Below are positions 1 through 28,693 of a stretch of 28,746 nt of DNA, piece by piece. Numbering within the stretch: position 1 is the stretch's first letter; each line of letters opens with the position of its first letter. The notes below the pieces were generated by a model that worked only from the letters and a program-made list of their open reading frames with translations, did no database searches and was not told where the DNA came from. Made by a program: the position numbers and the translations under genes. Source of the stretch: a virus; the IMG/VR virus record IMGVR_UViG_3300022853_000068, positions 1-28,746 of that record, one strand, 5' to 3'.

Positions 1-251
1 ACATGCCGTGAGACGCCATATAAGCTCGTTTGAGCCCGTTTTATGCCAACCCTTTACAATCATATTACCTGATTAAACTAGCCTTTATACCGTATCCTAC
101 AGCCTCGACTGACAATTTACGTCACCCTCTGACCATAATTGTCATAAAAGTGACCTATTGCGTCACATTGTGACCATCCAAGCAAGTATCATGCCAAGTC
201 TACAAACGGGAAAAACCCTTATAAATCAATGACTTACAGTTTTTGGCAAAG

Positions 252-268
252 TTGGCACGCAGTCTGCA
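252..268 (+). promoter_or_regulatory. Sigma54-like promoter motif
   Basis: TTGGCACGCAGTCTGCA matches the sigma54 (RpoN) consensus TTGGCACG-N4-TTGCA with one mismatch, and the GG and GC dinucleotides are separated by exactly 10 bases as the family requires. A sigma70 reading also exists (TTGGCA, 16 bases, TATCTT), but it is weaker. A TATATAT run follows at once. No enhancer site for a sigma54 activator was identified, so function is an inference from consensus match and location upstream of the first gene. Confidence 0.35.
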
Positions 269-490
269 TTATATATCTTGCCCCGGCAAGCCTTTGAGGC
301 AGTTGGTGGCCCTCGCAAGCATTGCGCTTGACAGGTTAACAGTTCGGACTAGTTACGTTGTAATGCGCCTAGTCTCGACGTGGATAGTACATACTGAGGG
401 TGTCGTCGTACACTCGGTCTATAGCATTGCCGCATGTAGTCAGTATAAAGCTACACACTAACAGTGAGCGGGTTATACTTGCGCGATTGT

Positions 491-502
491 TAGTCCGGAC
501 TA
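491..502. repeat. Palindromic repeat copy 1 (TAGTCCGGACTA)
   Basis: Perfect 12-bp palindrome 28 bases upstream of the gene at 531. A possible promoter (TACACA, 16 bases, TATACT) lies just upstream and would place the palindrome at the very start of the transcript. It could be a protein operator or an RNA hairpin with a CCGG loop. An imperfect relative (TTCGGACTAG) lies at about 343-352. Confidence 0.75.
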
Positions 503-530
503 CTTCTTCTAACTTATAGGGAGTGACACC

Positions 531-731
531 ATGCGTGTACATAAAGCACGGGGTGGAGCCTCGTATGATGTGGATCAAGAGCGACAGTATAACTGGTGGA
601 AGTCTAAGCCCGGGCGTAAGCTCAATGGCCCGACTCATCAGCTTACTAGGACTGAGCTTGAGGCTTTTGCTCAAGAACAAGGGCTAGAATTGTCTGCTAA
701 TGCCACGTTTGCGGTAGAGCGACACGCTTAG
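531..731 (+). CDS. Small early protein, unknown function
   Basis: This 66-residue basic protein starts at ATG after a good ribosome-binding site (GGGAG, 7 bases). It contains a QRQYNWWKSKPGRK segment and a C-terminal part that looks helical (RTELEAFAQEQGLE). It has no signal peptide or membrane segment. It is the first gene after the leader and follows palindrome copy 1, so it is probably expressed early. I do not recognise a family. Early phage proteins of this size often bind host factors, but nothing in the sequence shows that here. Confidence 0.7.
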   Translation: MRVHKARGGASYDVDQERQYNWWKSKPGRKLNGPTHQLTRTELEAFAQEQGLELSANATFAVERHA

Positions 732-764
732 AGTGAACAGGATACTTGTCAATGTGGTCCGGGA

Positions 765-776
765 TAGTCCGGACTA
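765..776. repeat. Palindromic repeat copy 2
   Basis: Perfect TAGTCCGGACTA in the gap between the genes at 531 and 875. The preceding GTCCGG (757-762) can pair with CCGGAC inside the palindrome, giving an alternative hairpin. Two further hairpins follow before the next gene: CTCTTG-ACAA-CAAGAG (788-803) and GACACT...AGTGTC (808-827). Confidence 0.75.
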
Positions 777-874
777 CATGAGCAAGCCTCTTGACAACAA
801 GAGCCGGGACACTAATGGACAAGTGTCTTGACATCCCCAGGACGGGACTAACTGAGTCTGAGAGAGGGTTCAAC

Positions 875-1222
875 GTGGCTAAGGGAAGACCTGTACGCGT
901 GAACCGTTCGAGACCATACAAGGTAGGGAATCGGATGCTATCCGACTATGACCTAGGATGGGACTTATGGTACACGCGTAAACCGTTGCCTCTCAATGCA
1001 CCCAGGGCTATGCAGCAAGGGTATGTGAAGGCTGCCAAGTCTAGCGATGCTAGTACTATGGCAAGCGCACGAACTCATGCTAGGAGAGGAATGTTTGTAT
1101 TCCTACCAGGGTATGAGCACCTTGCTGCAGATAGTGGTAAACCATTGTCTAGTGGATGCGAATCCCGCTATGCTGTGCGTGTTGCGAGAGCTGAGATAGA
1201 TAGAGTTAGGGAAATAGCTTGA
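875..1222 (+). CDS. Small basic early protein, unknown function
   Basis: I place the start at GTG 875, because GAGAGG sits 7 bases upstream and the protein then begins MAKGRPVRVNRSRP, a natural-looking basic N terminus. An in-frame ATG at 815 lacks a ribosome-binding site and lies inside a hairpin. The product is 115 residues, rich in Arg and Lys, with a WDLWYTRKPLPLN segment. There are no transmembrane segments and no known domain. The GAGAGGGTTCAA upstream is shared with the initiation region of the gene at 9753. Function is unknown. Confidence 0.6.
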   Translation: MAKGRPVRVNRSRPYKVGNRMLSDYDLGWDLWYTRKPLPLNAPRAMQQGYVKAAKSSDASTMASARTHARRGMFVFLPGYEHLAADSGKPLSSGCESRYAVRVARAEIDRVREIA

Positions 1223-1233
1223 CTGTAAAGGCA

Positions 1234-1245
1234 TAGTCCGGACTA
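1234..1245. repeat. Palindromic repeat copy 3
   Basis: Perfect TAGTCCGGACTA just after the gene ending at 1222 and 80 bases before the gene at 1326. Its right half (1242-1245) is also the outer end of a 12-bp stem-loop (1242-1269), so the two RNA structures would exclude each other. TTGACT lies 9 bases upstream. Confidence 0.75.
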
Positions 1246-1269
1246 CATTATCCGAAAGGATAGTGTAGT
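1242..1269 (+). promoter_or_regulatory. 12-bp hairpin with GAAA tetraloop in 5' leader
   Basis: The arms at 1242-1253 and 1258-1269 pair over 12 bp (11 Watson-Crick, one G-U) around a GAAA tetraloop. The hairpin lies in the leader of the gene at 1326 and overlaps palindrome copy 3. There is no U-run after it, so it is not an intrinsic terminator. It may be an mRNA stabiliser, a processing site or part of a switch with the palindrome. Confidence 0.6.
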
Positions 1270-1325
1270 GTAGACTGTCCCTTGAGATAGGGGTGGTGAC
1301 CATAACCAACTGAAGGAGTATCCGA

Positions 1326-1511
1326 ATGGATAACGTAGAGGTAAAGATTGTAGATGGTAAGTTACATCTGATCATTGACACGACACTGCCCATGCGTCCG
1401 CCAAAAGAGGGCAAGAAAATGTCCATGCTGGCGACTAGCAAGGGATTCCAGACCTTATTGCTGCCCAATGGTACGCAACTTAAGGTATCACTGAATGTAG
1501 GCGACTACTAG
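1326..1511 (+). CDS. Small conserved phage-type protein
   Basis: This 61-residue protein starts at ATG with a strong AAGGAG 7 bases upstream. The pattern VEVKIVDGKLHLIID ... PPKEGKKMSMLATSKG ... KVSLNVGDY resembles a short beta-rich family often seen in phage genomes, in which a K-x-GK-x-L-x-x-A-S-T-x-G segment is conserved. I recall the pattern but not a named function. It has no membrane segment. Its leader contains palindrome copy 3 and the GAAA hairpin. Confidence 0.75.
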   Translation: MDNVEVKIVDGKLHLIIDTTLPMRPPKEGKKMSMLATSKGFQTLLLPNGTQLKVSLNVGDY

Positions 1512-2088
1512 AGAGTGACAAAGCGAGAGCTAGGGTAGGACTAACACTACCCACATAGACGGGGCGGGCTGCCCTACTGTACACAGGTACTGCACCTTAT
1601 CGGGTGTCTAGCAAAGAGGTACAGGGGCAGTCCGTGCCGACCATAGCGTAGAGATACGCGAACCATGCCTACACATTAGGGATGGTAGACGGTTAGACTG
1701 TGCGCCAGTTTCTGACGGTGCGGCGAGCTAGGGACCCTATGCCTGAAGCTCAACATGCTAGACTAGATGCTGGTACAGGGTAGGCGATATGCCGTGGAAC
1801 AGGGAGAAATTCCAAACCGCGTGAGCCGAGGCTAGGTATAGGCAGAAACCCTAGCAACCTTGTGTACTCATCTTGCCCTTGGGAAAGGGACAGTCTAACC
1901 GTGTACTATTCTACTGTAAGTGGAGGCGTATCATGTGAGTGCCTGTGTAATGGCAGGCCAGGAAAGGAATGGTGTGCGAGTGACCCGAGAGGGAGGCACC
2001 CAAGCTGTGTCAGGAAGAGATACTAGTTAGACTGATGACAGGCAGCACACCATACCTCTTGCTCGTAGCAGTACCAGAGTGAGGGTTT
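1512..2088 (+). ncRNA. Gene-free, densely folded RNA region
   Basis: There is no plausible gene in this 577-base stretch, but there are many stem-loops. GGGTAG/CTACCC lies at 1533-1552. GCGTA-GAGA-TACGC with a GNRA loop lies at 1646-1659. A stem of 8 bp with one mismatch lies at 1662-1686. GCTAGG/CCTAGC lies at 1831-1855. CCCTT-GGGA-AAGGG lies at 1876-1889. CCC-GAGA-GGG inside GGTG/CACC lies at 1971-2000. A 9-bp stem with a 2-base bulge pairs 2004-2012 with 2036-2046. The density suggests a large structured RNA. Phages are known to carry large ornate RNAs such as GOLLD and ROOL, but I could not match either. Confidence 0.4.
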
Positions 2089-2250
2089 ATGATAGAGGCA
2101 GTGATGATACTGACAGGGATACTGGCCCTGTTGGTTGTGAATAGGAGAGATGCCAGTGGTAGAGGTAATGCGAGAGCTGGTAGACCTGGTGACAGGGCCA
2201 CTAGTGATGATAGGTATAGTGACAGTGTTGCCAATGAGCATACTGTTTAG
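2089..2250 (+). CDS. Possible small membrane protein
   Basis: This 53-residue frame begins MIEAVMILTGILALLVVNRRD, a single hydrophobic segment followed by positive charges, and ends in a polar Gly/Arg/Asp tail. GAGGG lies 3-4 bases before the ATG. It overlaps the next frame (2150) by about 100 bases, so one of the two may be spurious. If real it would be an inner-membrane protein with a cytoplasmic tail, like several neighbours. Function is unknown. Confidence 0.4.
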   Translation: MIEAVMILTGILALLVVNRRDASGRGNARAGRPGDRATSDDRYSDSVANEHTV

Positions 2251-2293
2251 TGTAGCAGGGGCAGGAGTTTGGATACTCCAATTGCTCCACTGA
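2150..2293 (+). CDS. Possible small membrane protein
   Basis: This 47-residue frame has a polar N terminus (MPVVEVMRELVDLVTG) followed by one or two hydrophobic stretches up to the end (LVMIGIVTVLPMSILFSVAG, then VWILQLLH). GGAG precedes the ATG, but only 2 bases away, so initiation may depend on coupling to the frame at 2089. Its stop lies just before the ribosome-binding site of the next gene, as expected in a compact operon. The membrane pattern favours a real gene; function is unknown. Confidence 0.45.
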   Translation: MPVVEVMRELVDLVTGPLVMIGIVTVLPMSILFSVAGAGVWILQLLH

Positions 2294-2310
2294 TACGGAG
2301 GAAAGGGACA

Positions 2311-2520
2311 GTGAAGACCCAATTGCATGGGTGTCTACTTGATGCCTGTAGGTGGGATGAGTACTACGAATTCTACCAGGTGAGATACCATGACTGCCGT
2401 CCGTATGCTCGGATAGGTAGGAGAACTGTGAAAACACGTTGGGTAGTCCGGACTACTGCCCAAGATGAGAGCGCACTACTGCCCACTATCGAGGAGGTAG
2501 CGGTAGTATCCAACAACTAG
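2311..2520 (+). CDS. Small early protein, unknown function
   Basis: I choose GTG 2311 because GGAGG lies 9 bases upstream; a longer in-frame version from TTG 2269 has no site. The 69-residue product is KTQLHGCLLDACRWDEYYEF..., with three cysteines and a basic middle (ARIGRRTVKTRW). Palindrome copy 4 lies inside the coding sequence and encodes VVRTT, so DNA or RNA function constrains these codons. No domain was recognised. Confidence 0.55.
   Translation: MKTQLHGCLLDACRWDEYYEFYQVRYHDCRPYARIGRRTVKTRWVVRTTAQDESALLPTIEEVAVVSNN
2444..2455. repeat. Palindromic repeat copy 4 (inside a gene)
   Basis: Perfect TAGTCCGGACTA, the only copy inside a coding sequence (gene 2311-2520). It lies 74 bases upstream of the next start at 2530, so its placement relative to a downstream gene is kept even here. 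GGG before and CCC after extend the symmetry partly. Confidence 0.75.
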
Positions 2521-2529
2521 GAGAATGAT

Positions 2530-2712
2530 ATGATCGTGACATTACTACTGATACTGTACACCAGTACAGGTATCATCGAACAGCAGGTACACGTAGTACC
2601 TGACAGCAGCATGACCACGTGTGAGCAGACCGGTGAGGGCTACGTTGAGTCCGGTTGGTATGGTGGAGCACGGGTAGCTGGTTACATATGCAAAGAGGAG
2701 GTAACACCATGA
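2530..2712 (+). CDS. Small protein with N-terminal hydrophobic segment
   Basis: This 60-residue protein begins MIVTLLLILYTSTGIIEQQ, a short hydrophobic stretch that could be a membrane anchor or poor signal peptide. A polar part follows with two cysteines (TTCEQ and YICKEE) that could form a disulfide outside the membrane. TAGGAG lies 6 bases before ATG. Its stop overlaps the next start (ATGA), indicating translational coupling with the gene at 2709. Function is unknown. Confidence 0.65.
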   Translation: MIVTLLLILYTSTGIIEQQVHVVPDSSMTTCEQTGEGYVESGWYGGARVAGYICKEEVTP

Positions 2713-3422
2713 GTCAGCAAGGTAGATTAGCGCACCTCACCCACAAGGGTGTACTGGGTGCATTCATTGTAGCTGAACGTAAGCAGCAGGGTGCAGCAAG
2801 TGACCTGTTCAAGCTAGCCAAGCGATGCAAAGATCAGGTGGAATTCATACGCCGATGTGAGGAGGCGGAAGACTTCTACTTGTCCGATGAAGCAGGACAG
2901 ATGAAGATCAAGGAGCTGCCCCGTAAGTATATCCAAGCCAAGTCGGATATCAAGGGCGGCTTCAAGGCCGGGTTAGACTTCACTCGGATCAAGTCGTACC
3001 ATGCCATGAAGAATGCTAAGGGTGAGGCCAACAAGCAGGCTGCTGCCCTAGAAGAATCGGAAGTTGTTGTTGTAGTCCCTGACCAGGATGAGGCAGCACC
3101 CACGATCAGTGATGAGGTCGTCACTGTTCAGAGCACCAAGGAGCAGCGTGATAGCACACGTCGTTATGCTGGCCCACGTAAGGACCGGGATGCTAGCCCG
3201 GAAATTACAATGGCCGAAGCCTTGGAGCAGGGTCTGGTGTTGGATGCAAAGACCAACGTCCTGATGCCTGAGGACATGCGTGCCCTAGTGGTTGCGCTGT
3301 CCAAGCTACCTGAGATGCCTCGTGCTCGGCTTATCAAGCAGTTCACGAAGGATGCACAGCGTGCTCTTAGCGAGCAGGGCCAGCGCCCACAGTCTGGAGT
3401 CATCCATGTCCAATCAGCGTAG
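2709..3422 (+). CDS. Unknown 237-residue early protein
   Basis: ATG 2709 follows GAGGAGG at 7-8 bases and overlaps the upstream stop. Residues 1-110 are charged and probably helical (AERKQQGAASDLFKLAKRCKD, RCEEAEDFYLSDEAG). An acidic, Val-rich linker follows at about 115-140. The last third carries LVLDAKTNVLMPEDMRALVVALSKLPEMPRARL and a helical segment. There are no membrane segments and no motif I can name. It is one of the larger early genes, with typical codon use for this half. Function is unknown. Confidence 0.75.
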   Translation: MSQQGRLAHLTHKGVLGAFIVAERKQQGAASDLFKLAKRCKDQVEFIRRCEEAEDFYLSDEAGQMKIKELPRKYIQAKSDIKGGFKAGLDFTRIKSYHAMKNAKGEANKQAAALEESEVVVVVPDQDEAAPTISDEVVTVQSTKEQRDSTRRYAGPRKDRDASPEITMAEALEQGLVLDAKTNVLMPEDMRALVVALSKLPEMPRARLIKQFTKDAQRALSEQGQRPQSGVIHVQSA

Positions 3423-3504
3423 TTCATGGTGGTACGTGCCAGTCCTTTGGGGAGCATTCCTCTTTGGGCTGGTAGGTGCTATCTATCTTCACTCAATCTT
3501 TTAG
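3406..3504 (+). CDS. Single-span membrane peptide
   Basis: A 32-residue protein starts at ATG 3406 (TGGAG, 6 bases) inside the last codons of the previous gene. The sequence is MSNQRSSWWYVPVLWGAF followed by LFGLVGAIYLHSIF, one transmembrane helix with a short polar N terminus. Its stop overlaps the ribosome-binding site of the gene at 3514. It starts a cluster of three tiny membrane genes. Function is unknown. Confidence 0.6.
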   Translation: MSNQRSSWWYVPVLWGAFLFGLVGAIYLHSIF

Positions 3505-3513
3505 GAGAAACCT

Positions 3514-3651
3514 ATGTTCTTTAGTTCATTCAGTGGTGGCGTTGGCAGAGTCGTTATCGGCACTGTCATTGGCTTACTATCAATGGCCGGAACAATGAAG
3601 GTAATCGAATGGGCACCCCAGGTGACGACCTTCGTAAGCGGCCTGTTGTAG
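3514..3651 (+). CDS. Small membrane protein
   Basis: A 45-residue protein with an excellent start (TTAGGAGAAACCT before ATG; the 14-base string AGGAGAAACCTATG recurs at the gene at 7435). It has a Gly-rich hydrophobic segment (RVVIGTVIGLLSMAGTMKVI) and a short tail. One membrane span is likely. Its 3' end overlaps the gene at 3609 in another frame. Function is unknown. Confidence 0.65.
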   Translation: MFFSSFSGGVGRVVIGTVIGLLSMAGTMKVIEWAPQVTTFVSGLL

Positions 3652-3776
3652 ATCAGCGCAAACCGAGCCGCACTCCCTTCCCAAAAGGCGGGGAGTGGAC
3701 GGCTTTGGTGCTGATGGTGGTTATCTTTGGCGGGCTGGCTGGTATCTTAGATGCCGTGGCTCGCATGGTAGGGTAA
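3609..3776 (+). CDS. Small membrane protein
   Basis: A 55-residue protein starting at ATG 3609 after AAGG at 7 bases, overlapping the previous gene by 43 bases. It has a basic polar N terminus (GDDLRKRPVVDQRKPSR) and one clear membrane segment (TALVLMVVIFGGLAGILDAV). The likely topology is a cytoplasmic N terminus. Together with 3406 and 3514 it forms a compact set of membrane peptides upstream of palindrome copy 5. Function is unknown. Confidence 0.65.
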   Translation: MGTPGDDLRKRPVVDQRKPSRTPFPKGGEWTALVLMVVIFGGLAGILDAVARMVG

Positions 3777-3794
3777 CTGTAATCTAAACTCAAG

Positions 3795-3806
3795 TAGTCC
3801 GGACTA
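3795..3806. repeat. Palindromic repeat copy 5
   Basis: TAGTCCGGACTA, here extended to a perfect 14-bp palindrome (GTAGTCCGGACTAC, 3794-3807). It lies 25 bases before the GTG start at 3832. TGTAAT, a fair -10 box, lies about 14 bases upstream. Confidence 0.75.
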
Positions 3807-3831
3807 CCTCAAGCCGGTACGGAGTGGCGTG

Positions 3832-4047
3832 GTGAATACATTTAAAGCATGGGAGCCGAAACAATTCTTGTTATCAGAGGACGAAGCCAAAGCCGAGTGC
3901 TGGTTAGCAGCTCAGATATACCTGGATACCAATCACTTCCTGTACGATGGAGACACCATACACTCCGTAGTAGTGGAGTCCACGTGGCACATCATGAGGA
4001 TGATGTATTGTGGACCGAACCCAACCCCCTTAATTACTCAGGAGTAA
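3832..4047 (+). CDS. Small early protein, unknown function
   Basis: Two tandem GTG codons (3829 and 3832) follow GGAG; 3832 has the better spacing of 7. The 71-residue product is NTFKAWEPKQFLLSEDEAKAECWLAAQIYL..., soluble and mildly acidic, with aromatic and Met-rich parts (WHIMRMMYCG). It follows palindrome copy 5 directly. The next gene starts 7 bases downstream of its stop. No family was recognised. Confidence 0.55.
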   Translation: MNTFKAWEPKQFLLSEDEAKAECWLAAQIYLDTNHFLYDGDTIHSVVVESTWHIMRMMYCGPNPTPLITQE

Positions 4048-4053
4048 TCATGT

Positions 4054-4521
4054 ATGTTCTCTCTAATCTTTCCCTTACGAATGGCTGTCATCATCATCGT
4101 TATTTGTGGTGCCCTCGTTGCGCCCCCACTTCGGGCGGACGAGCTTCATCACCCACCGTTAATCGACGTGTTGATCGTCCCGGAAACATCGCCAGTGTAT
4201 CCCGGAATGTACTGCGTAGCATCGTACTCAATCCTCCACGAACAGCTGATGTCTTTGGACCAGAGGGGTATACCCCCGATAGTGGCTGAGGATTTAAAGG
4301 CTCGTGGTAGTGGGCTGATGGTATTCCTATACCCTCTCGCCGAGGAGGTGGAGCAGCTAGGAGCTATCGACTTCACCGCTGAGGTGCTGGTACTCAAGGG
4401 TTACCTGATAGCCCATGTAGATGGTAGCTACTGGCTTGAGCAGGCCGAGGCTTACGACTGTCGTGCCATGACAGAACAGTGGGCTAAACTGAAACATCAG
4501 CACTATAGTACGCCCTTGTAG
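4054..4521 (+). CDS. Secreted protein with signal peptide, unknown function
   Basis: The 155-residue protein has a classic signal peptide: basic start, hydrophobic core (MAVIIIVICGALVAPP) and a probable cleavage site after LRA, before DELHH. The mature part has two cysteines (MYCVAS and YDCRAM) that may pair in the periplasm. ATG 4054 lies 9 bases after GGAG; an in-frame ATG at 4081 would still leave a signal peptide. It probably acts in the periplasm, for example in superinfection exclusion or envelope modification, but no motif shows which. Confidence 0.6.
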   Translation: MFSLIFPLRMAVIIIVICGALVAPPLRADELHHPPLIDVLIVPETSPVYPGMYCVASYSILHEQLMSLDQRGIPPIVAEDLKARGSGLMVFLYPLAEEVEQLGAIDFTAEVLVLKGYLIAHVDGSYWLEQAEAYDCRAMTEQWAKLKHQHYSTPL

Positions 4522-4736
4522 GGTGTACATAATGGACTGATCTTCATTGCTGTGCCCAGCTTCGGTTGGGTACATCAATGCAGAGCAGCACGAGATACAG
4601 TGCGCTAGACTCTAGCATGTCACCTCAATGTGACGTACCAACCTTGACATAAGGTGATAGGTTGGAATGTGTGAGCGTCCGACAGGGCCGCGTCCCTGTG
4701 CATTGAGATACACTCACCAACCCAAGGAGAAATAGC
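4522..4736 (+). promoter_or_regulatory. Structured 5' leader with competing helices
   Basis: This gene-free 215-base leader contains a six-pair stem with a C(UUCG)G tetraloop (4555-4570) and GTCAC/GTGAC (about 4619-4634). CCAACC (4638-4643) can pair with GGTTGG (4660-4665). A second CCAACC (4717-4722), directly before the AAGGAG ribosome-binding site of the gene at 4737, could pair with the same GGTTGG. ACAGGG/CCCTGT forms another stem at about 4682-4699. The arrangement resembles a translational switch. Confidence 0.4.
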
Positions 4737-4919
4737 ATGAATTTAATATCAGCTATGCTCGCATCAGCACCCCGGTATGTAGTAATACTGCTCGTGGTCG
4801 TGATGCTTGTGTTCGGCTCTCATGCCGGACTCGATTACTTGGTCGCCTTCTTAGGCGATGCTTGCGTCCCCGTGGATGCTACTACCAGCGTTTGTCTGGT
4901 AGCTGATACGGCACAGTAA
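4737..4919 (+). CDS. Small membrane protein
   Basis: A 60-residue protein with a strong start (AAGGAG, 7 bases, ATG). It has a long hydrophobic stretch (about residues 12-28, YVVILLVVVMLVFGSHAG) and a C-terminal part with two cysteines (DACVPV and TSVCLV) that could form a disulfide in the periplasm. It is preceded by the structured leader at 4522-4736, suggesting controlled translation. Function is unknown. Confidence 0.65.
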   Translation: MNLISAMLASAPRYVVILLVVVMLVFGSHAGLDYLVAFLGDACVPVDATTSVCLVADTAQ

Positions 4920-5095
4920 CCTGTGTCGGTGGCACGATCTGTAACATTGGTAGCTATGTATGTGTGAACATGCCAAGCCTGTCGATACCTAACTGCGGTA
5001 GCCTCTGGTGAACGTAGTTGTAGATAGGTGGGTTGCTCAGTAACCATGCGAGACACACCTCGTTACGATAAGGATTAATGTGTCAGTTCGATGAG

Positions 5096-5107
5096 TAGTC
5101 CGGACTA
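5096..5107. repeat. Palindromic repeat copy 6
   Basis: Perfect TAGTCCGGACTA, 37 bases before the start at 5145 and the last copy in the window. The following TCCGGG makes its reverse complement look like the extended context of copy 2, where CCGG also lies a few bases upstream. The rest of the gap (4920-5095) holds no gene. Confidence 0.75.
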
Positions 5108-5144
5108 TCCGGGCTTAATTTAAACCACAATGAAGGAGAAGCTT

Positions 5145-6392
5145 ATGATAGTCACTGACTTACATAAGACCTCAGTCAGTGGACGTCACCAGAAATCACA
5201 GCGTAAGCACGAGGACGTAAGGACTCCGACTGCACGTAATGCGATAGTACGGGATAGAGAGAGTGGGTTATACCACGCTAACTATGACACCACTAAACTG
5301 AGTGATGCCTTAAACAGCATCAACCTGCGATTGAATGCGCTTGAGTTAAATCAGCACGTTCTCCACCGTCAAGGTGTGATCGCAACCCCCGATAGTGTGA
5401 TAGCTCCAGCAGTACAGAGCAACGTGATACCTATGGCGGATGCACGTAAGGCTAAGGAGCAGAGTAAGGTAGTCCCTGTATCTCAGCCCGGCAATGAAGC
5501 CGAGCAACTTCCCTTCCCGGAGGTGCAAGATGAGGTCCAGGTCTTACCTGCTCCGAAGCCAGTTACTCAGGTCGTTAGGGCCAGTAACTACGAGCCAACA
5601 CGAATCGGGAAAGAAAGCACGCTCACTCCCAGTGAGATGGTGCCCGAAGCAACCTTGGATATACTAGCTGCTGTGATGCCCGACGAAGATGTCGGTATAG
5701 TTGAACAGCTCGCCGATGCATACGGGATGGACCTCGTAGAGGCTAGTGAAATCCTCTGTCGTGAGTACTTCCGACGGGAAGCAGAGTGCATGAAGCACCA
5801 CGACAAACCTCGCATTGATGTTAAGCTGGCTCGTTACGAGAGCAAGCGAGGCATGATCATCCCTGGCTTCGAGTACATGGAGTACTGTGGCCCACGGTCG
5901 GAGAACACACAGTTCAAGGCTTGGTCAAGGGAGATGCGAGCACGTGAGATAGAGTTGAAGGGAGCAGCAGCCGCACGGTTAGCCGACCCGCCTCTTACCT
6001 CGGCACCCTACACACAGGGTGAGATGGCCTATCGCAAGAAGGCTATCATTCATCGAGCAGCAGCTCGACCGAAGGCGCATACCCCAGGGTTTGCTCACGT
6101 GCAGAAGGTATCTAAGGAGCTCGCTGTACCGCCTGCTGTGACAACAGCATCGCAGATAGCAGCCATTGGTGCCTGGACATGGGATGTCTATCAGAAGGGC
6201 CGCAAGCTCGTCGGCATGAACCCGACCGTTCGTCACGCTGCAAAGCGTACACGATATGAACTGATGGATGCTGTCAATAACTTCGAGGGAAACAATATCA
6301 GCCCTCGGTCCAAGGTAGCGGTGCCTTGTGACGATACAATCCCCCAAGCCGAGTTGGTCCGGAGGTACCGACGTACAGGGATCGGATACTGA
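5145..6392 (+). CDS. Unknown 415-residue early protein
   Basis: ATG 5145 lies 6 bases after AAGGAG; an ATG at 5130 would put that site inside the coding sequence. The N-terminal 40 residues are basic (HKTSVSGRHQKSQRKHEDVR). A short helical segment follows at about 50-70. A Val/Pro-rich linker spans about 75-150. The rest is a charged, probably helical region with LLDILAAVMP-like and WDVYQKGRKLVGMNP segments and a very basic C terminus (RRYRRTGIGY). There are no membrane segments. Its length and charge would suit a nucleic-acid or host-protein binder, but no domain is recognised. Confidence 0.75.
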   Translation: MIVTDLHKTSVSGRHQKSQRKHEDVRTPTARNAIVRDRESGLYHANYDTTKLSDALNSINLRLNALELNQHVLHRQGVIATPDSVIAPAVQSNVIPMADARKAKEQSKVVPVSQPGNEAEQLPFPEVQDEVQVLPAPKPVTQVVRASNYEPTRIGKESTLTPSEMVPEATLDILAAVMPDEDVGIVEQLADAYGMDLVEASEILCREYFRREAECMKHHDKPRIDVKLARYESKRGMIIPGFEYMEYCGPRSENTQFKAWSREMRAREIELKGAAAARLADPPLTSAPYTQGEMAYRKKAIIHRAAARPKAHTPGFAHVQKVSKELAVPPAVTTASQIAAIGAWTWDVYQKGRKLVGMNPTVRHAAKRTRYELMDAVNNFEGNNISPRSKVAVPCDDTIPQAELVRRYRRTGIGY

Positions 6393-6744
6393 GCATCCGA
6401 CAATTGATTCTAGATACCTATGGTTTGAAACATTCGATTGATTGAGATTGATTGAGAGTTAACTCTGGATTGCAGCGACCGTAACAAATTCTACGGCGAC
6501 TGTAGCCCAGTACGTACCAAGCAGCGATTGTACATCAGTCTGCACCGACTGTAGTTGGCGTACTGTATGAGTAAATAACACCAGGCATAGCACGTAGTGC
6601 TCCCTGCGCTGGGTTGATCAATCAATAATAGTGACTGTCGCAGTCATAACTGATAGCTGGAATGTTATCACGTCGTCGTTGACAAAGAGTATGCACTAAG
6701 GTGTCCAAGCCTAGTGAGTACCGCTCTTGTACCAGAGTAGAAAT

Positions 6745-6824
6745 TTGTACACACAGTGGGAACAATCACACCCTGACAGGTGTGGGCGCTGGTTCAATTC
6801 CAGCCTACCTATTCAGTTGGGTAG
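6745..6824 (+). ncRNA. tRNA-like element 1, possibly permuted
   Basis: The T-arm is perfect: GCTGG-TTCAATT-CCAGC at 6788-6804. An anticodon-arm-like hairpin lies just upstream: CACAC/GTGTG, 6767-6784, with an 8-base loop CCTGACAG. A weak D-arm-like TTGT...ACAA with GGG in its loop lies at 6745-6765. The next 7 bases after the T-arm, CTACCTA, have their 7-bp partner TGGGTAG only 6 bases downstream (6818-6824) instead of upstream. That order is the signature of a circularly permuted tRNA. It could also be chance pairing beside a decayed gene. Confidence 0.35.
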
Positions 6825-6864
6825 CCTAGTTACACACAACACAACGAGAAGTTACTATCAACCT

Positions 6865-6938
6865 CAGGGTTCAATACCCTGCCGGATGACGTTCGGGTCA
6901 CGGTGACAGGTAGTGTCGTACACTGGCTCTCAACCAGG
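6865..6938 (+). ncRNA. tRNA-like element 2
   Basis: A perfect T-arm, CAGGG-TTCAATA-CCCTG, lies at 6865-6881. It is followed by CCGGATG, which can pair with CGTTCGG right after it (up to 5 pairs allowing a hairpin turn). About 40 bases on, CTGG-CTCTCAA-CCAG (6923-6937) looks like an anticodon arm with loop CTCTCAA: T33, anticodon CTC, A37. The order T-arm, acceptor-like strand, then anticodon arm is again rearranged. A normal variable loop and D-arm are not clear. Confidence 0.3.
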
Positions 6939-7178
6939 TGAGGCTAATGTTTCTTCCCTCCCTTGCTTATCTACAATGTGCATGTGGCACGGGTAAGCTG
7001 GCTATAAATTGTGGCGGGTTGTTTGCAGCGGAGATAGTGAGTACGTACCGTAGCACTAGGATTCAGAACACCATTGGAACTAGTAACCGAGCGTGTGAAT
7101 AGCGTAAGGTCGGGCGCGATACCTATGATTAGTGGTAAGTACAAGGTGTGGTACAGCGTGAGCAAAGTTTGTGCATGT

Positions 7179-7219
7179 CATGTTGGTAAGCCGTGTTGGT
7201 TCGAGTCCAACCCCTATCG
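7179..7219 (+). ncRNA. tRNA-like element 3 (D-arm and T-arm only)
   Basis: CATG-TTGGTAAGC-CGTG (7179-7195) is a good D-arm with the GGTA typical of D-loops. It is followed immediately by a perfect T-arm, GTTGG-TTCGAGT-CCAAC (7195-7211), sharing one G. No anticodon arm lies between them. GGTGTGG at 7145-7151 could pair at 6 of 7 positions with CCCTATC (7212-7218), giving an overall length of about 74 bases. It is either a decayed tRNA or a deliberate tRNA mimic. Confidence 0.3.
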
Positions 7220-7271
7220 TTATGGGACAGGCCGGTGAGAATCAGCTTCCACCGTGAACAAATAAAGAACT

Positions 7272-7343
7272 GTTACTTGGATGTGACTGCCCTGCAAAGC
7301 GGTCGTGGTTCGAACCCACAGTAATTGACAGAGTATAAGTAAC
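7272..7343 (+). ncRNA. tRNA-Cys-like element 4
   Basis: ACTGC/GCGGT (7286-7303) encloses CCTGCAAA, which contains CTGCAAA, the standard loop of tRNA-Cys (anticodon GCA), plus one extra base. A T-arm, GTGG-TTCGAAC-CCAC (7305-7319), follows after one base. GTTACTT (7272-7278) can pair with AAGTAAC (7337-7343) over 7 bp, or with the nearer AGTAAT (7320-7325). A D-arm is missing or shrunken. As a Cys tRNA it would be abnormal in having a large anticodon loop and no D-arm. Confidence 0.35.
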
Positions 7344-7434
7344 GCAATATTAACCCGCCTTAGATTGGTACTGCACACGTAGTACGGGGCACATGAATTA
7401 TCAATTAACTTGACGATCAATACAGGAGAAACCT

Positions 7435-7809
7435 ATGAGTCTATATCGTCTAGCCGTATCAAGCGGCTTATTAATACGGGAGAAGCGCAAGCTCCTCCGC
7501 TGGTGGATTTGGAGCTTCAATCGGAGTGAAGAAGACTACCTGAACAAGTTGAAGAACCGGTTGACTGCGCTTCGACAGGAGCAATCGCTGTTGACAGCAG
7601 CTATACCGGAAGAGGAGGAACGGATCAAGAAGATCAAGGAGTACCTCCTCGAACGTGGCGATGGAATTGGTCCCGCTCGACGGGACAAGTGGAGCCACCG
7701 CATCGAACCTGTGCGGCTGAAGAAGGATACTAAACTGCAAGGTAAGAAGAAAAAGGATAAGGATCCTCCGACACCACCCAAACCTTTGTTTAACATTACC
7801 CCTACCTAG
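7435..7809 (+). CDS. Coiled-coil protein with Lys-rich tail, unknown function
   Basis: A 124-residue protein with a strong start (AGGAGAAACCT, ATG). Residues 1-30 are basic and aromatic (KRKLLRWWIWSFNRS), perhaps membrane-associating. Residues 33-75 have a heptad-like pattern (YLNKLKNRLTALRQEQSLL, EEEERIKKIKEYLLERG) suggesting a coiled coil. The tail is Lys-rich then Pro-rich (GKKKKDKDPPTPPKP). It follows the gene-free region and may sit at the start of its own transcript. No family was recognised. Confidence 0.65.
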   Translation: MSLYRLAVSSGLLIREKRKLLRWWIWSFNRSEEDYLNKLKNRLTALRQEQSLLTAAIPEEEERIKKIKEYLLERGDGIGPARRDKWSHRIEPVRLKKDTKLQGKKKKDKDPPTPPKPLFNITPT

Positions 7810-7827
7810 TAGGAAGGAGGATCAATC

Positions 7828-7863
7828 ATGATAATATTACATGACGACGAAGACCCGATTTAA
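7828..7863 (+). CDS. Possible 11-residue leader peptide
   Basis: AAGGAGG lies 7 bases before an ATG that opens MIILHDDEDPI and stops at TAA. The next ATG (7865) starts one base after this stop (TAATATG). The best ribosome-binding site in the area therefore serves the 11-codon frame, and the following gene would be translated by re-initiation. Alternatively the ribosome uses ATG 7841, 20 bases from the site, which is poor spacing. Confidence 0.35.
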   Translation: MIILHDDEDPI

Positions 7864-7864
7864 T

Positions 7865-8032
7865 ATGGACGAGTACACCATCACTGAATTCGCAGGCTTA
7901 GTAATAGGCTTGTGTATATACATCATCGTTCGAGTGTGTATGAGTGGGCAACGGGCAGGAAAGGAGAGTTCAGTGTCCTCCTTACCCGAGTCTGAGACGA
8001 CACCTGATGACACACACGAGTCGCGTAGGTAG
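7865..8032 (+). CDS. Small membrane protein
   Basis: From ATG 7865 the product is 55 residues: MDEYTITEF, one membrane span (AGLVIGLCIYIIVRVCM), then a polar tail rich in Ser, Glu and Asp. A start at 7841 would add 8 residues (MTTKTRFN). One base separates this start from the stop of the 11-codon frame, suggesting coupling. Hairpins GTAGC/GCTAC and ACCCTA/TAGGGT follow its stop. Function is unknown. Confidence 0.55.
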   Translation: MDEYTITEFAGLVIGLCIYIIVRVCMSGQRAGKESSVSSLPESETTPDDTHESRR

Positions 8033-8074
8033 CTTCCTCGTGCTACACCCTACCGTAACTAGGGTACTTACCGC

Positions 8075-8119
8075 CACGTGCAAGATGGGACAGTATGTTG
8101 GTTCGAATCCAACCACGTG
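8075..8119 (+). ncRNA. tRNA-like minihelix (acceptor plus T-arm)
   Basis: CACGTG (8075-8080) pairs with CACGTG (8114-8119), and the T-arm GTTGG-TTCGAAT-CCAAC (8097-8113) abuts the 3' strand exactly as in a tRNA. Only 16 bases stand where the D and anticodon arms should be. An acceptor stem stacked on a T-arm is the known minimal substrate for RNase P and for several tRNA-reading enzymes. The element may therefore be a processing site upstream of the gene at 8191. Confidence 0.4.
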
Positions 8120-8190
8120 AGGCGCAGCCGGGATGCCGGTGGAACGATGATGAAAAAGAATTGTCTAATCACCACAACAAGGAGATGCTT

Positions 8191-8337
8191 ATGTTTGGAT
8201 TGGAGCCTGCACAACAGGCACATATCATCCAAGCTGCTTTGATCTCGTTGGTAATATTAGTTGGCATAGCTCCAGAGTGGATACGCCGACAGTACACCAT
8301 ACGAGGTTTATTCAAGCGAATACGTTGCCACCTATGA
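8191..8337 (+). CDS. Small membrane protein
   Basis: A 48-residue protein starting at ATG 8191, 6 bases after AAGGAG. It has a polar start (MFGLEPAQQAH), one membrane span (IIQAALISLVILVGIAP) and a strongly basic tail (WIRRQYTIRGLFKRIRCHL), placing the C terminus in the cytoplasm. It sits between the tRNA-like minihelix and the long-stem RNA. Size and layout are holin-like, but there is only one span and no other support. Confidence 0.6.
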   Translation: MFGLEPAQQAHIIQAALISLVILVGIAPEWIRRQYTIRGLFKRIRCHL

Positions 8338-8381
8338 CAATGTAGTAACGCTTGGCCTACGGCCTAGGTACTATGTAGTGC

Positions 8382-8485
8382 GACAGTGCATTGTACTCAG
8401 GGCCAACCTATGATGATGTCATAGGGCGCTTCCTTCTTTGAGGGGAGTAGGCAGTATGGGTTGGTTCTGAGTACAGTGCATTGTC
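8382..8485 (+). ncRNA. Long-stem RNA with two internal hairpins
   Basis: Bases 8382-8408 pair with 8459-8485 to form a 27-bp stem: 19 pairs in the outer part (two G-U), two G-U pairs, then CCAACC/GGTTGG. Inside lie TATGA-TGATG-TCATA (8409-8423) and CTTCC...GGGAG (8429-8447), making a three-way junction. It lies wholly between genes, ending 27 bases before the start at 8512. It could be a stable small RNA or an RNase III cleavage site like those between T7 genes. Confidence 0.6.
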
Positions 8486-8511
8486 ATTGTAACCACCAGC
8501 CGGAGAGTAGC

Positions 8512-8697
8512 ATGGTAGTAAGTGATCTAATCACTGAGCTTGAGAAGCTCCCTCAAGACGCATGGCTGGATGCTATGTTTGAAGGCGGCAGCGCTGATGC
8601 GTATGCTGTTGTTGGAGTAGACTCGATCACCCTCAATGATGGTCGAGTCATTGCTATCCTGGACATTACGTCAAGTAATGGACTGGCCCTAGCATGA
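8512..8697 (+). CDS. Small soluble protein, unknown function
   Basis: A 61-residue acidic protein starting at ATG 8512 after GGAG at 6 bases. The pattern MVVSDLITELEKLPQDAWLDAMFEG...VVGVDSITLNDGRVIAILDI has a predicted helix followed by beta strands. It resembles small phage proteins that begin with a helix reading LIxxLxxLPxDA. I recall no function. Its stop overlaps the start of the next gene (ATGA at 8694-8697). Confidence 0.65.
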   Translation: MVVSDLITELEKLPQDAWLDAMFEGGSADAYAVVGVDSITLNDGRVIAILDITSSNGLALA

Positions 8698-8807
8698 ACA
8701 CAACTAAGACAGATATTAAAGCCCTCGTTAATTCAGGGTACGATGTGGCTACTACTGTAGCCTTGCAATGGAGCTTCCTTATGCTGCTCGTAGCAGCTGG
8801 GATGTAA
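8694..8807 (+). CDS. Small membrane peptide
   Basis: A 37-residue protein coupled to the previous gene by an ATGA overlap. It has a polar start (MNTTKTDIKALVNSGYDV) and a hydrophobic end (TTVALQWSFLMLLVAAGM), so it is probably anchored by its C terminus. A hairpin resembling a terminator follows its stop. Function is unknown. Confidence 0.55.
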   Translation: MNTTKTDIKALVNSGYDVATTVALQWSFLMLLVAAGM

Positions 8808-8817
8808 CGCTCTAGGT

Positions 8818-8856
8818 GGGGTGCTCTCGCACGGGCACCCTTACTTTCCATTTTTC
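8818..8856 (+). terminator. Possible rho-independent terminator
   Basis: GGGTGC (8819-8824) pairs with GCACCC (8835-8840), and the next bases, TTACTTTCCATTTTTC, are T-rich. An inner GTGC-TCTC-GCAC hairpin competes. It stands after the gene ending at 8807 and before the strong ribosome-binding site of the gene at 8871. The T-run starts imperfectly, so termination may be partial. Confidence 0.45.
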
Positions 8857-8870
8857 TGGAGGAAATTTTT

Positions 8871-9644
8871 ATGGAGAAAACCATCGTAGTAGGTGACATC
8901 CACGGGCACATCCCGACAGTAGAGGCTGCACTAGCTAGCCCCTGCAACGTCGTGTTCGTAGGTGATTACCTAGATTCCTTTAGTCAAGGGCCTGAGAATC
9001 AGGTAGCCTGTCTAAGGATGGTGCTGGACGCTGTTGAAGCGGAACCCGACAGAGTGGTAGCCCTAAGGGGTAACCATGAGATGTCCTATATGGTGCTTGA
9101 GATGCGCTGTAGTGGGTACAATCAGCATACAGCAACACTAGTGACTCACCTCCAGCAACGGATGTGGGATACACTTAAGGCTTTTCATTGGGTAGGTGAG
9201 TACCTTATCACACACGCAGGTGTGGATCAGGAGCTACTTGATAGTGAGCAGATCACAGTTGAGGAGTACTTGGAGGGAGGTAACTTCCTACAGATCGGTA
9301 CGTCACGGGGTGGGTACGCCTACGCAGGTGGCTTGTACTGGAATGACTTCACAGCTGAGATGATCCCCGTACCTGGCCTTAAGCAGGTAGTTGGTCACTC
9401 TAATAGCAACCGCAACGAGCGGGATGTTGAGGGCGTACGTGTCAAGCGTATGAACGGAGGAGAGACCTGGTGTGTGGATAACCTTAACCGCACATGGGAG
9501 GTACTAATGATTGATGTAGATGGGGTGGCTAAGCCAGTACCACTACTTGATAAGTGTCGTAACTGTAGAGAGGCAGGTAACTATATTGATCTGCTGTCAC
9601 GAGAGGGACGATGCGAGACTTGTTACATACAACGGGAGATGTAA
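8871..9644 (+). CDS. PPP-type metallophosphoesterase with C-terminal Cys4 motif
   Basis: A 257-residue serine/threonine phosphatase-like metalloenzyme of the phage lambda phosphatase type. The metal-binding motifs are in order: GDIHGH (8-13), GDYLD (31-35), GNHE (67-70), THAG near 120 and GHSNS near 180. The C terminus adds CRNC...CETC, a likely zinc ribbon of about 25 residues that simple lambda-type enzymes lack. It would hydrolyse phosphoesters in the cytoplasm; the substrate is unknown. The start has GGAGG 8 bases upstream. The tiny gene at 9644 overlaps its stop. Confidence 0.9.
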   Translation: MEKTIVVGDIHGHIPTVEAALASPCNVVFVGDYLDSFSQGPENQVACLRMVLDAVEAEPDRVVALRGNHEMSYMVLEMRCSGYNQHTATLVTHLQQRMWDTLKAFHWVGEYLITHAGVDQELLDSEQITVEEYLEGGNFLQIGTSRGGYAYAGGLYWNDFTAEMIPVPGLKQVVGHSNSNRNERDVEGVRVKRMNGGETWCVDNLNRTWEVLMIDVDGVAKPVPLLDKCRNCREAGNYIDLLSREGRCETCYIQREM

Positions 9645-9736
9645 TGGAAGAATTTATTAATGCGGTATTCAGTTACCAATATTATTGGGAAGCCTTAGCT
9701 GCTCTAGCTCTATGGCTTTACCTACTAAAAGACTAA
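9644..9736 (+). CDS. 30-residue membrane peptide
   Basis: It starts by TAATG overlap with the phosphatase stop; GGGAG lies 5 bases upstream. The sequence is MEEFINAVFSYQYYWEALAA followed by LALWLYLLKD, one amphipathic to hydrophobic helix. It is too short for most gene finders, but the spacing and clean start suggest a real gene. Function is unknown. Confidence 0.5.
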   Translation: MEEFINAVFSYQYYWEALAALALWLYLLKD

Positions 9737-9751
9737 CCGGGGAGAGGGTTC
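9732..9751 (+). repeat. 20-base direct repeat, copy A (translation start region)
   Basis: ACTAACCGGGGAGAGGGTTC occurs here and, identically, at 10686-10705 inside the primase-helicase gene. Here it supplies the ribosome-binding site (GGGGAGAGG) of the phosphoesterase starting at 9753. A 20-base exact repeat is not expected by chance in a sequence of this length. Confidence 0.8.
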
Positions 9752-9752
9752 A

Positions 9753-10268
9753 ATGAGTAACGTCTACGTTACCTCTGACTGGCACCTAGGCCACAACGGA
9801 ATCAGTAATAGGTTCCGCACTAGGTTCGATAGTGACCACCACCATGACCATCACATCGTAGAGATGGCTCGATCTTACCTAACCAAGAGGGACACACTCA
9901 TCTGTGTAGGTGACATGTCCTTCACTGTTGAAGGGATGGAGATGATTGATTCACTACCAGGTACTAAGATCCTGGTACGTGGTAACCATGACATCCTCCA
10001 GGAGGACCAGTATCACGCTGTGTTCGACGCAGTTCAAGGGGCCTGGTCATACAAGGGCTTCTGGATTACGCACATGCCTGTGCATCCTATGGAGCTGTAC
10101 GGTAGGCCTAACATACACGGTCACTGCCACCGTGGTGGCCCATACGAACACCAGCAGGGTGAGCATTGGGATATGTACTACAATGCTATCCTTGAGTACA
10201 ACGACTATAAGCTGGTGAATCTTATGACTGTGAAAGAGATGATGGCAGCACGCCGGGAACTTTACTAA
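9753..10268 (+). CDS. Calcineurin-like metallophosphoesterase
   Basis: A 171-residue protein of the small phage and bacterial metallophosphoesterase type. Motifs are TSDWHLGH (8-15), GDMS near 53, GNHD near 76, THMPVHP near 110 and the final GHCH metal-binding pair near 128. The length fits the single-domain family. A His/Asp-rich stretch (DSDHHHDHH, about 27-35) follows the first motif. It is a second, different phosphoesterase next to the PPP-type one at 8871. Substrate is unknown; phage homologues are sometimes proposed to act on nucleotides or RNA ends. Confidence 0.9.
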   Translation: MSNVYVTSDWHLGHNGISNRFRTRFDSDHHHDHHIVEMARSYLTKRDTLICVGDMSFTVEGMEMIDSLPGTKILVRGNHDILQEDQYHAVFDAVQGAWSYKGFWITHMPVHPMELYGRPNIHGHCHRGGPYEHQQGEHWDMYYNAILEYNDYKLVNLMTVKEMMAARRELY

Positions 10269-21810: not shown

Positions 21811-22029
21811 TTAACGGTTCTTTCGATCCTCGTAACGATCCCACATCTTCATGAGAGTCCAGGTCATGGCTAAAAGCCCTGCCCCTATCGCTACTATTCC
21901 CGCCATCACATCTATTACTGGCCCAAATTGCTCCGACACACTAACTGCCCACGATACTAGGCTACCACCTGCGGTTGCCATGATCTTGGGATCACTCGTC
22001 TGTACTATATCATGCACTATCTTTGACAT
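21811..22029 (-). CDS. Holin-like small membrane protein
   Basis: A 72-residue protein with a hydrophobic middle (MATAGGSLVSWAVSV, then FGPVIDVMAGIVAIGAGLLAMTWTLMKMW) and a strongly charged end (DRYEDRKNR). One or two spans with a basic C terminus is the usual layout of phage class II holins. It is the last gene of the minus-strand unit. The start ATG at 22029 overlaps the upstream gene by 20 bases; the ribosome-binding site is weak. No lysin is seen in the window. Confidence 0.6.
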   Translation of the reverse strand: MSKIVHDIVQTSDPKIMATAGGSLVSWAVSVSEQFGPVIDVMAGIVAIGAGLLAMTWTLMKMWDRYEDRKNR

Positions 22030-22189
22030 CTTCTTCGCTTACTTCCTGTTCTTCCGGTTGAACTAGCTTTGCACTACCGAGTGCTCGATTCATCAGATTA
22101 CCTACGTCTGCGTATGGTAACTGGGCTAGTGTATTAATCATTTCTTCGTAGATTACTCGATCTACTATTACTTTATCTAAGTTTTCCAT
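22010..22189 (-). CDS. 59-residue protein, unknown function
   Basis: A short gene with an excellent site (GAGGAGGGACA before ATG at 22189). The sequence is MENLDKVIVDRVIYEEMINTL...LPYADVGNLMNRAL, helical and acidic, ending in an acidic tail (PEEQEVSEEDVKDSA). It overlaps the holin-like gene by 20 bases, so the two are coupled. It could be a holin regulator by position, but nothing in the sequence shows this. Confidence 0.65.
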   Translation of the reverse strand: MENLDKVIVDRVIYEEMINTLAQLPYADVGNLMNRALGSAKLVQPEEQEVSEEDVKDSA

Positions 22190-22272
22190 TGTCCCTCCTC
22201 GGGGCTATTATGTAAATAAGCCATTGGCTTGTAAGTCCGCTACTGATGTAGGCTGGGCATGTTGTTCCTTGA

Positions 22273-24021: not shown

Positions 24022-25441
24022 CCAATTCAATATCCCCAAAGGCGTTGTATGCCTGAAATCGGGTTGCATCGGTAATGGTCAATCGCAAGATGAAATCCTT
24101 GTGCCGAACAATTCGCCCGAATTGGCGCAACACAACGCGCTTGGCATGCTCACCAAAATCACCCAATGAAATTGATGAATGCGCGCGGTATGTATAGCCA
24201 CCATCTTTTGAATATTCCACGATCATCACCGGGTTGGCCGTGGGATCAGTTGTTTGGCCCACTTCCATTTCAAATTCAATGTGCGGCAACGTCCAATCAA
24301 CCGGAAAAGATATTGATGGCAACGTTAAAACGCGCCGCATTATTTCGCCGTTTTCATCCTTGGCGCCTTGGTCAAGCTCATAAATCAAACCCTTCACGAT
24401 ATCCAGGCCATAAAGCTTGTTATTGAACAACGCCGCCGCACCAACACGCCAAAACCCCAACCCTTCGGATTGCCGCGTGTGCTCCAATTGCGTTGCAAAA
24501 TCATATGCCCACGTAAACCCCTCGGTTGGGAACGTTAAGCAATAGATTTTATGCGCCGGGCCATCAATGAAAAAACCGATGGCATCATCAGTTACGGAAA
24601 ATCCGGGGAAGTTTGGCGTACCATCACCGCGCACCTTCAATTCAAAATCAAGCCCGCTGATGGTGGTCATTTGCTGGCCATCAATCACACGCACGGTATT
24701 ATCATCAGCAAACCAGCAAAACACTTCACCGGCCTTGGCCAAGCTTGCATCGGCGGCAATGCCGCGTTCTTTGCTCGCACCAGTCACCACGCGCAAAGGC
24801 AATGTGGCCGAATCTACCGATTGCCAAAACTCTATTGATTCAGTGTTCAGGAACCACACGCCTGAATTCTTCTTGATGGCCGCCCGTAAGTTGTCCGGAT
24901 TCTGTTCGGCGCTACCAAATGAAAGCGGGTTGTACGCGGCAAAATCGGTCACATCAGATAGAAAAAACTCGTTTGTATCACGGCGCACAAATATGCCACG
25001 CTCATTCAATACGGTGCCGCTAACTGTTGCGAAAAAGTTGGGATCAGTAATTTGAACAAGCCCGGCGCCATTAGTGTAAACAAACCCCTGGCCAATGCCG
25101 TTCAAGATCATTATTTGGTTATCACCAGGCGCACCGTTGGCAAAGATTTGCGCCCGGCCTGAACCATTCACAACACCCAACGCGGTGGCCACACCAAATT
25201 CATCAACGCGGAAAAGGGTTGCCCCACTTACGCAATACATAAAGCCGGAATTCACAAACAGGTTCGAGCGGCCGGGGAAATCCGTAAGCGTTGAAAACAA
25301 GGTCAGCCCGAATGAATCTTTTACCGTGGCATATTGGCCATCTTTCGCAATTTCAGGCAAAAGGTTCACCGCACCTTGGCGGGCTTTTACGCTGTTAAAA
25401 TCGCGATCAGAGCCGCCCAATGATATCGGTTGTTTAGCCAT
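24014..25441 (-). CDS. P22 gp10-like packaged-DNA stabilisation protein
   Basis: A 475-residue protein that begins MAKQPISLGGSDRDFNSVKARQGAVNLLPE and continues in beta-propeller-like strands (NSGFMYCVSGATLFRVDEFG, NDNLRAAIKKNSGVWFLNTES, EFWQSVDSATLPLRVVTG). This matches the neck protein gp10 of P22-like phages, which closes the head-tail channel with gp4 and gp26. P22 gp10 has 472 residues, so length agrees. It follows the gp4-like gene with 8 bases of overlap. Confidence 0.8.
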   Translation of the reverse strand: MAKQPISLGGSDRDFNSVKARQGAVNLLPEIAKDGQYATVKDSFGLTLFSTLTDFPGRSNLFVNSGFMYCVSGATLFRVDEFGVATALGVVNGSGRAQIFANGAPGDNQIMILNGIGQGFVYTNGAGLVQITDPNFFATVSGTVLNERGIFVRRDTNEFFLSDVTDFAAYNPLSFGSAEQNPDNLRAAIKKNSGVWFLNTESIEFWQSVDSATLPLRVVTGASKERGIAADASLAKAGEVFCWFADDNTVRVIDGQQMTTISGLDFELKVRGDGTPNFPGFSVTDDAIGFFIDGPAHKIYCLTFPTEGFTWAYDFATQLEHTRQSEGLGFWRVGAAALFNNKLYGLDIVKGLIYELDQGAKDENGEIMRRVLTLPSISFPVDWTLPHIEFEMEVGQTTDPTANPVMIVEYSKDGGYTYRAHSSISLGDFGEHAKRVVLRQFGRIVRHKDFILRLTITDATRFQAYNAFGDIELDG

Positions 25442-26621: not shown

Positions 26622-26624
26622 TGC

Positions 26625-26912: not shown

Positions 26913-26951
26913 CACTCAACCCCTTCATTCCGCATTGATTCATTCTAGTGG

Positions 26952-26979: not shown

Positions 26980-26995
26980 GTGGCCCCGGCTTGCC

Positions 26996-27712: not shown

Positions 27713-27725
27713 TTACTCATTCCTT

Positions 27726-27756: not shown

Positions 27757-27774
27757 CCAAGTTCGACCGGGTTT

Positions 27775-28689: not shown

Positions 28690-28693
28690 AGTT

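Follow-up and report, generated by a model that had tools for sequence, protein, structure and literature searches.

Palindrome arrays in the early region of Zobellviridae-like podoviruses and a candidate phage-encoded reader

Six identical copies of a 12-bp palindrome, TAGTCCGGACTA, stand in the early region of the virus record IMGVR_UViG_3300022853_000068, whose 28,746 nucleotides we analyzed in full and refer to as the window. What reads these copies, and in what form? A preliminary description of the sequence had proposed a shared operator, an activator site or an RNA element coordinating the early genes, perhaps bound by a phage-encoded dimer. Our comparison with related phages makes it rather likely, in our judgment, that the six palindromes are duplex-DNA operators for one symmetrical (dimeric) phage-encoded protein. 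This protein would most likely be the product of a gene family that we call fam2, which would be autoregulated and would probably act by repressing or road-blocking transcription.

We observed exactly six perfect copies of TAGTCCGGACTA in the window, all within its first 5.1 kb and at the positions previously reported (Table 1). No one-mismatch copy was found across the window, and no other 12-bp palindrome occurs there in repeat copies. The shuffled control suggested in the preliminary description gave 0 copies in 100 dinucleotide shuffles. An independent contig of 34.4 kb, G010, matches window positions 1-10238 at 99.7% and carries all six copies, together with an extra 11/12 copy, TAGTCCGGACTG, 150 bp upstream of the window's first base. 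The proposed distance of 25-100 bases to the next gene start holds roughly for copies 1, 3, 4 and 6, but copy 5 lies closer to a weak GTG and copy 2 has no clear start codon downstream. One copy had been placed inside a gene. However, the open reading frame (ORF) that spans copy 4, 2269-2520, has no coding support, and consequently all six copies are intergenic in our gene calls. There are no tRNA genes at the window sites.

The window phage is a water-borne podovirus near the Zobellviridae. Its plus strand carries a T7-like primase/helicase, a DNA polymerase and an exonuclease, its minus strand carries the virion genes, and the closest annotated phage is the Zobellviridae member H1 (PQ867844; helicase 49%). 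We gathered relatives as contigs via the helicase and took the array region as the stretch from the early/late junction to the helicase. The search of these genomes for sites upstream of homologous genes revealed arrays in the same early region, with sites before orthologous operons. Six copies of the window 12-mer are present in G002 (helicase 72% identical) and six in G005 (61% identical), the latter with two copies of TAGTCTGGACTA as well. Other genomes carry palindromes of their own: eight copies of TAGTCTAGACTA and one variant in G003, four of TAGTTCGAACTA in G004, two of TAGTCCAGACTA in G006, four of GTTGTCTAGACAAC in H1, TGTCTTGCAAGACA in G008, GTATCTTAAGATAC in G016 and 11 GTAGT-N4-ACTAC sites in G021. 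The palindrome of G017 is GTTGTCTAGACAAC, common to H1, and that of G007 is ATGTAT-N6-ATACAT, which forms the weakest array (three copies). The near-regular spacing noted earlier is true of the window but is lost in the relatives, where the inter-site distances are irregular and one phage has two copies 63 bp apart.

Nearly all copies agree inside any one genome, and the sequence differs between sister phages. Judged from the sequences, the copies of a genome change in concert; one trans-acting reader per phage would therefore be expected. Of the sites counted in 12 genomes, 65 fall within the early region and a single one just beyond it. Intergenic sites number 51 (31.1 expected), and 19 sites have a Shine-Dalgarno sequence with ATG (SD-ATG) 15-55 bp downstream, compared with 3.8 expected from random positions. 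The orthologue of the gene at 5145-6392 has a site 31-41 bp ahead of its ATG in five phages (the window and G002-G005), with three different palindromes among them. When 35 sites were aligned, no flanking column was conserved, including those for -10 and -35 elements, and there was no excess of sigma-70-like promoters near the sites. As the flanks show neither a conserved promoter nor an RNA hairpin, the most probable reader is a dimeric protein that binds DNA.

Table 1. Palindrome copies, early genes and putative junction promoters in the window.
Feature	Position	Strand	Remarks
Palindrome copy 1	491..502	none	Exact match; ORF 531 starts 28 bp downstream
Palindrome copy 2	765..776	none	Exact match; clear start codon absent downstream, nearest about 100 bp or more
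Palindrome copy 3	1234..1245	none	Exact match; ORF 1326 begins 80 bp downstream
Palindrome copy 4	2444..2455	none	Exact match; 74 bp upstream of the fam2-containing operon 2530-3422
Palindrome copy 5	3795..3806	none	Exact match; weak GTG 22 bp downstream
Palindrome copy 6	5096..5107	none	Exact match; ORF 5145 starts 37 bp downstream
fam2, 237 aa, candidate cognate DNA-binding regulator	2709..3422	+	Co-occurrence with arrays; AlphaFold2 model
60-aa ORF that opens the fam2 operon	2530..2712	+	SD and ATG; overlaps the start of fam2
Small early ORF, 66 aa	531..731	+	First after copy 1; SD and ATG; no family match
Small early ORF, 61 aa	1326..1511	+	After copy 3; match in G005
Early gene, 415 aa	5145..6392	+	Kept in the window's clade; site precedes all five intact copies; structure model of low confidence
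Sigma-54-type promoter TTGGCACGCAGTCTGCA	252..268	+	Upstream of the early region; 0.03 expected at such a score in shuffles
Divergent sigma-54-type promoter TTGGCATGATACTTGCT	181..197	-	Towards the late side

Which phage protein could be this reader? Among the genomes examined, fam2 is the only window protein family whose distribution tracks the arrays. It was present in 11 of 11 array genomes with a sufficiently complete early region and in none of six array-free genomes (G011, G012, G018, VpV262, RIO-1 and CVT22; Fisher 8e-5, uncorrected for phylogeny). A site lies ahead of the fam2 operon in every fam2 genome, namely the window, G002, G003, G004, G005, G007, G008, G016, G017, G021 and H1. 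G016, G017 and G007 seemed array-free at first, and it was fam2 that located their arrays, with one copy 37-55 bp upstream of the gene. Searching with the fam2 protein gave one new phage, G021, whose helicase is just 26% identical to that of the window; it too has an array, with TGTAGTCTGACTACA directly before fam2. The palindrome also seems to be tracked by the similarity between fam2 proteins. Those of H1 and G017, two phages with the same palindrome, are 48% identical, and each is 33% identical to that of G016; in DNA polymerase, all three pairs share 67-73% identity.

In the AlphaFold2 model of fam2, residues 1-119 make up an N-terminal part that is confidently predicted and entirely helical (predicted local distance difference test score above 90 in most blocks); a disordered middle follows, and then a helix at the C-terminus. 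Conservation is highest in a stretch with LPxxWxQAKSDI, then Gly, then SxSxMKxAK, and we infer that this stretch may form a helix-turn-helix whose second helix varies between phages. Other candidates were rejected. No known regulator was found among 125 early proteins in Pfam or PHROGs, and the ORF at 5145-6392 is absent from the other array genomes and gave a poor model.

Repeated sites were also seen in two other phages. IMGVR_UViG_3300033156_000775 (G009, L051-L056) has a genome of 107 kb with 29 perfect copies of TGTAGTCCGGACTACA and many near copies genome-wide, some before genes and others within genes or between convergent genes. We rejected it as a relative of the window phage, and because the two have only the phosphoesterase in common and G009 lacks fam2, we treat its sites as convergent. 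VpV262 (L093) has six AAAGT-N-ACTTT copies, dispersed at 1291, 7007, 22803, 30571, 39214 and 44795.

Several observations weigh against fam2 as the reader of the arrays. It has no recognized DNA-binding domain and no Foldseek match in the PDB, nor did we find a Pfam family above cut-off, a PHROG family or a PDB sequence match. Against viral models, Foldseek returned a few uncharacterized phage proteins, including one of Pseudomonas phage PPpW-3 (probably gp59, judged by length), and PPpW-3 has no array. Beyond the missing phylogenetic correction of the Fisher value, half of the genomes had served to form the idea. In a partial Mantel test, fam2 distance correlated with site distance (r 0.64, p 0.001), but a control gene was equally significant (r 0.66, p 0.002), and thus we do not rely on this test. 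G009 carries about 30 TGTAGTCCGGACTACA copies without fam2, and VpV262 was scored as array-free despite its six dispersed repeat copies, which we treat as unrelated.

Could the sites instead work in RNA, as a small hairpin in early mRNA leaders for processing, antitermination or translational control? They lie 20-55 nt ahead of start codons, in a region that might be transcribed as a single long RNA. Locally stable RNA structures surround a few copies, and one copy in G006 sits in a tRNA-like sequence. However, the stem would be merely 4-6 bp, and the six leaders have no common fold; they fold differently, and 3 of 6 do so no better than shuffles. In almost all lineages, the main variant is palindromic even in its four central bases, which would form the loop, and asymmetric variants in G021 are present both ways round (GTAGTCTAAACTAC and GTAGTTTAGACTAC). 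Because of these palindromic centers and two-way variants, duplex DNA fits, and its reading by a symmetrical protein would be the best fit to the sequences. The hairpin was rejected on fold and symmetry, and an RNA element of any of these kinds now appears improbable. We give a similarly low chance to the activator option, in which every palindrome would mark a separate early or middle promoter, served by a phage activator or by a host polymerase in altered form. A position 20-55 bp before genes is the usual place of a promoter, and a PF00940 search of the window detected no RNA polymerase gene, although this is a weak test, as the control genomes gave none either. But activators usually require fixed spacing, and with no conserved column in the aligned flanks and no sigma-70 excess, fixed-spacing activation is disfavored. 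Promoters for a T7-type RNA polymerase were also rejected; with that same weak control, the polymerase was not found, and the palindromes do not fit.

A host-encoded dimeric regulator would place the reader outside the phage: the early region would be wired to, or would titrate, a host transcription factor, and the palindrome would vary with the host. The host-type sites at the junction (three LexA-type boxes, two canonical parS and sigma-54-type promoters) and the same 12-mer core in the unrelated 107-kb phage would agree with this, and we consider it unlikely rather than negligible. Yet the half-sites differ between close sisters, and the search for relatives or lysogens in 84,980 species genomes of bacteria and archaea returned only one remote match of 21%. 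Moreover, a host factor would not explain the presence of arrays, because these follow a phage gene family. The least probable option, to which we give almost no weight, is that the sites serve a DNA-organizing or processing protein (ParB/Noc-like clamp loading, a nuclease or a methylase) and do not affect transcription directly. It finds some agreement in G009, with its genome-wide copies, some of them within genes and between convergent genes, but the relatives of the window have their sites in the early region only, with enrichment just ahead of start codons.

The shared operator and phage-encoded dimer of the preliminary description, by contrast with its RNA and activator options, are supported by the conserved arrays, the sites before orthologous operons, the concerted change and the match to one phage protein family, all of which can be read directly from the genomes. 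Our model suggests that fam2 is made early and binds all copies as a dimer. The sites lie in the leader regions of a number of early operons, fam2's own among them. Bound fam2 would most likely act as a repressor or as a road-block to elongation, capping or shutting off the early region along with the production of fam2 itself. We infer the binding, the dimeric state and the negative effect; a repressor or road-block is the most likely form of action because no promoter element keeps a constant spacing to the sites. Site and protein change together between sisters, and therefore each phage would have its own address. More speculatively, fam2 could be the founding example of a novel DNA-binding regulator family in phages. 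It would act on a palindromic, stoperator-like array that lies, in lytic podoviruses, within a long early transcript driven by sigma-54, with its specificity re-tuned together with the sites in each lineage; we regard this wider proposal as possible but doubtful.

The early/late junction carries further motifs. Near-consensus sigma-54 promoters (TTGGCACG-N4-TTGCA) point in both directions at this divergent junction. Sites of this type were found in G010 (23912, 24347 and 24418), G005 (202 and 502), G007 (34987-35748), H1 (oriented, one direction, 243) and VpV262 (172-309, tandem, in 41-bp steps), and G008 has a weaker pair in the same place (178 and 252); at that score, 0.02-0.08 would be expected per genome (IMG/VR genomes and H1). 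No such sites occur in RIO-1 or CVT22, two phages with sigma factor genes of their own. The plus-strand promoter in the window is probably the context of the array. If real, these promoters would put the array within a sigma-54-driven transcript, and Zobellvirid-type phages would begin transcription with host RpoN, a start on which we found no paper in the literature.

At window coordinates of about -166 to -56 in G010, the LexA-type box (CTGT-N8-ACAG) occurs three times and the canonical chromosomal parS site (TGTTTCACGTGGAACA) twice, a cluster that accompanies the seventh, 11/12 palindrome just ahead of the window start. The G008 junction has a larger array of CTGTAT-like boxes. The early regions are sparsely coding and contain many lone tRNA T-arm motifs (GGTTCGANTCC with paired stems), on the plus strand only. 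These lie at 6788, 7195 and 8097 in the window, where ARAGORN called no tRNA, and similar ones occur in G002, G003, G005 and G006. In G006 (L067, about 2137), a palindrome copy replaces the anticodon arm of a tRNA-like sequence.

The right end of the window is of a different kind. Positions 21811-28746 encode structural genes of another lineage (P22-like head closure) than the Zobellvirid module of G010 and G003. The near-identical G010 has the Zobellvirid structural module, but the right end of the window has a different head module, and an independent contig backs the window only up to 22041. This end is either part of a mosaic genome or a chimeric assembly.

The published members of the Zobellviridae lack an RNA polymerase gene (PMC9960094, PMC6775973), and on gene control in these phages PMC9960094 says just that regulation must differ from that of T7. 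Our search of a literature library found no account of such arrays in the Zobellviridae. For gene control in polymerase-less podoviruses of this type, our findings offer a cis element as well as one candidate protein, and about eight natural site sequences with matching proteins form a natural set for studying the co-change of regulator and operator. With cis element, candidate protein and natural variants in hand, the question is directly testable.

How do these arrays compare with known systems? The RNase III sites of the T7 early region also place an element before each early gene and in the early region only, but they are long RNA hairpins, and the window sites have no shared RNA fold. The P1 C1 operators and the SP-beta repressor sites are dispersed repeated operators for one phage regulator in temperate phages; they differ from the window sites in sequence and symmetry, and no related protein was seen here. 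The stoperators of the cluster A mycobacteriophages L5 and Bxb1 are asymmetric, 13 bp long and aligned with the direction of transcription; a monomer binds them, and they are present genome-wide and serve lysogeny (PMC6550527, PMC9283540). In contrast, the window sites are perfect palindromes limited to the early region, lysogens were not found, and the 125 early proteins include no L5 Rep-family repressor by Pfam or PHROG, fam2 matching none. The two systems share many short, phage-specific intergenic sites near gene starts and, if the sequence comparison is read correctly, one cognate phage regulator that diverges with its site, for which fam2 is the candidate here. The stoperator repressor stops elongating transcription where it is bound. 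KorA of the IncP-1 plasmid RK2 is a homodimeric global regulator of 101 aa with a solved structure, which acts at core promoters through seven OA operators (PMC4889941). RK2 is a plasmid, core promoters were not found near the window sites, and fam2 has neither a PDB fold match for its model, the KorA/TrbA-type helix-turn-helix fold included, nor a sequence match. What the window has in common with KorA and OA is the architecture itself: a 12-bp palindromic operator, in a handful of copies, standing before several operons.

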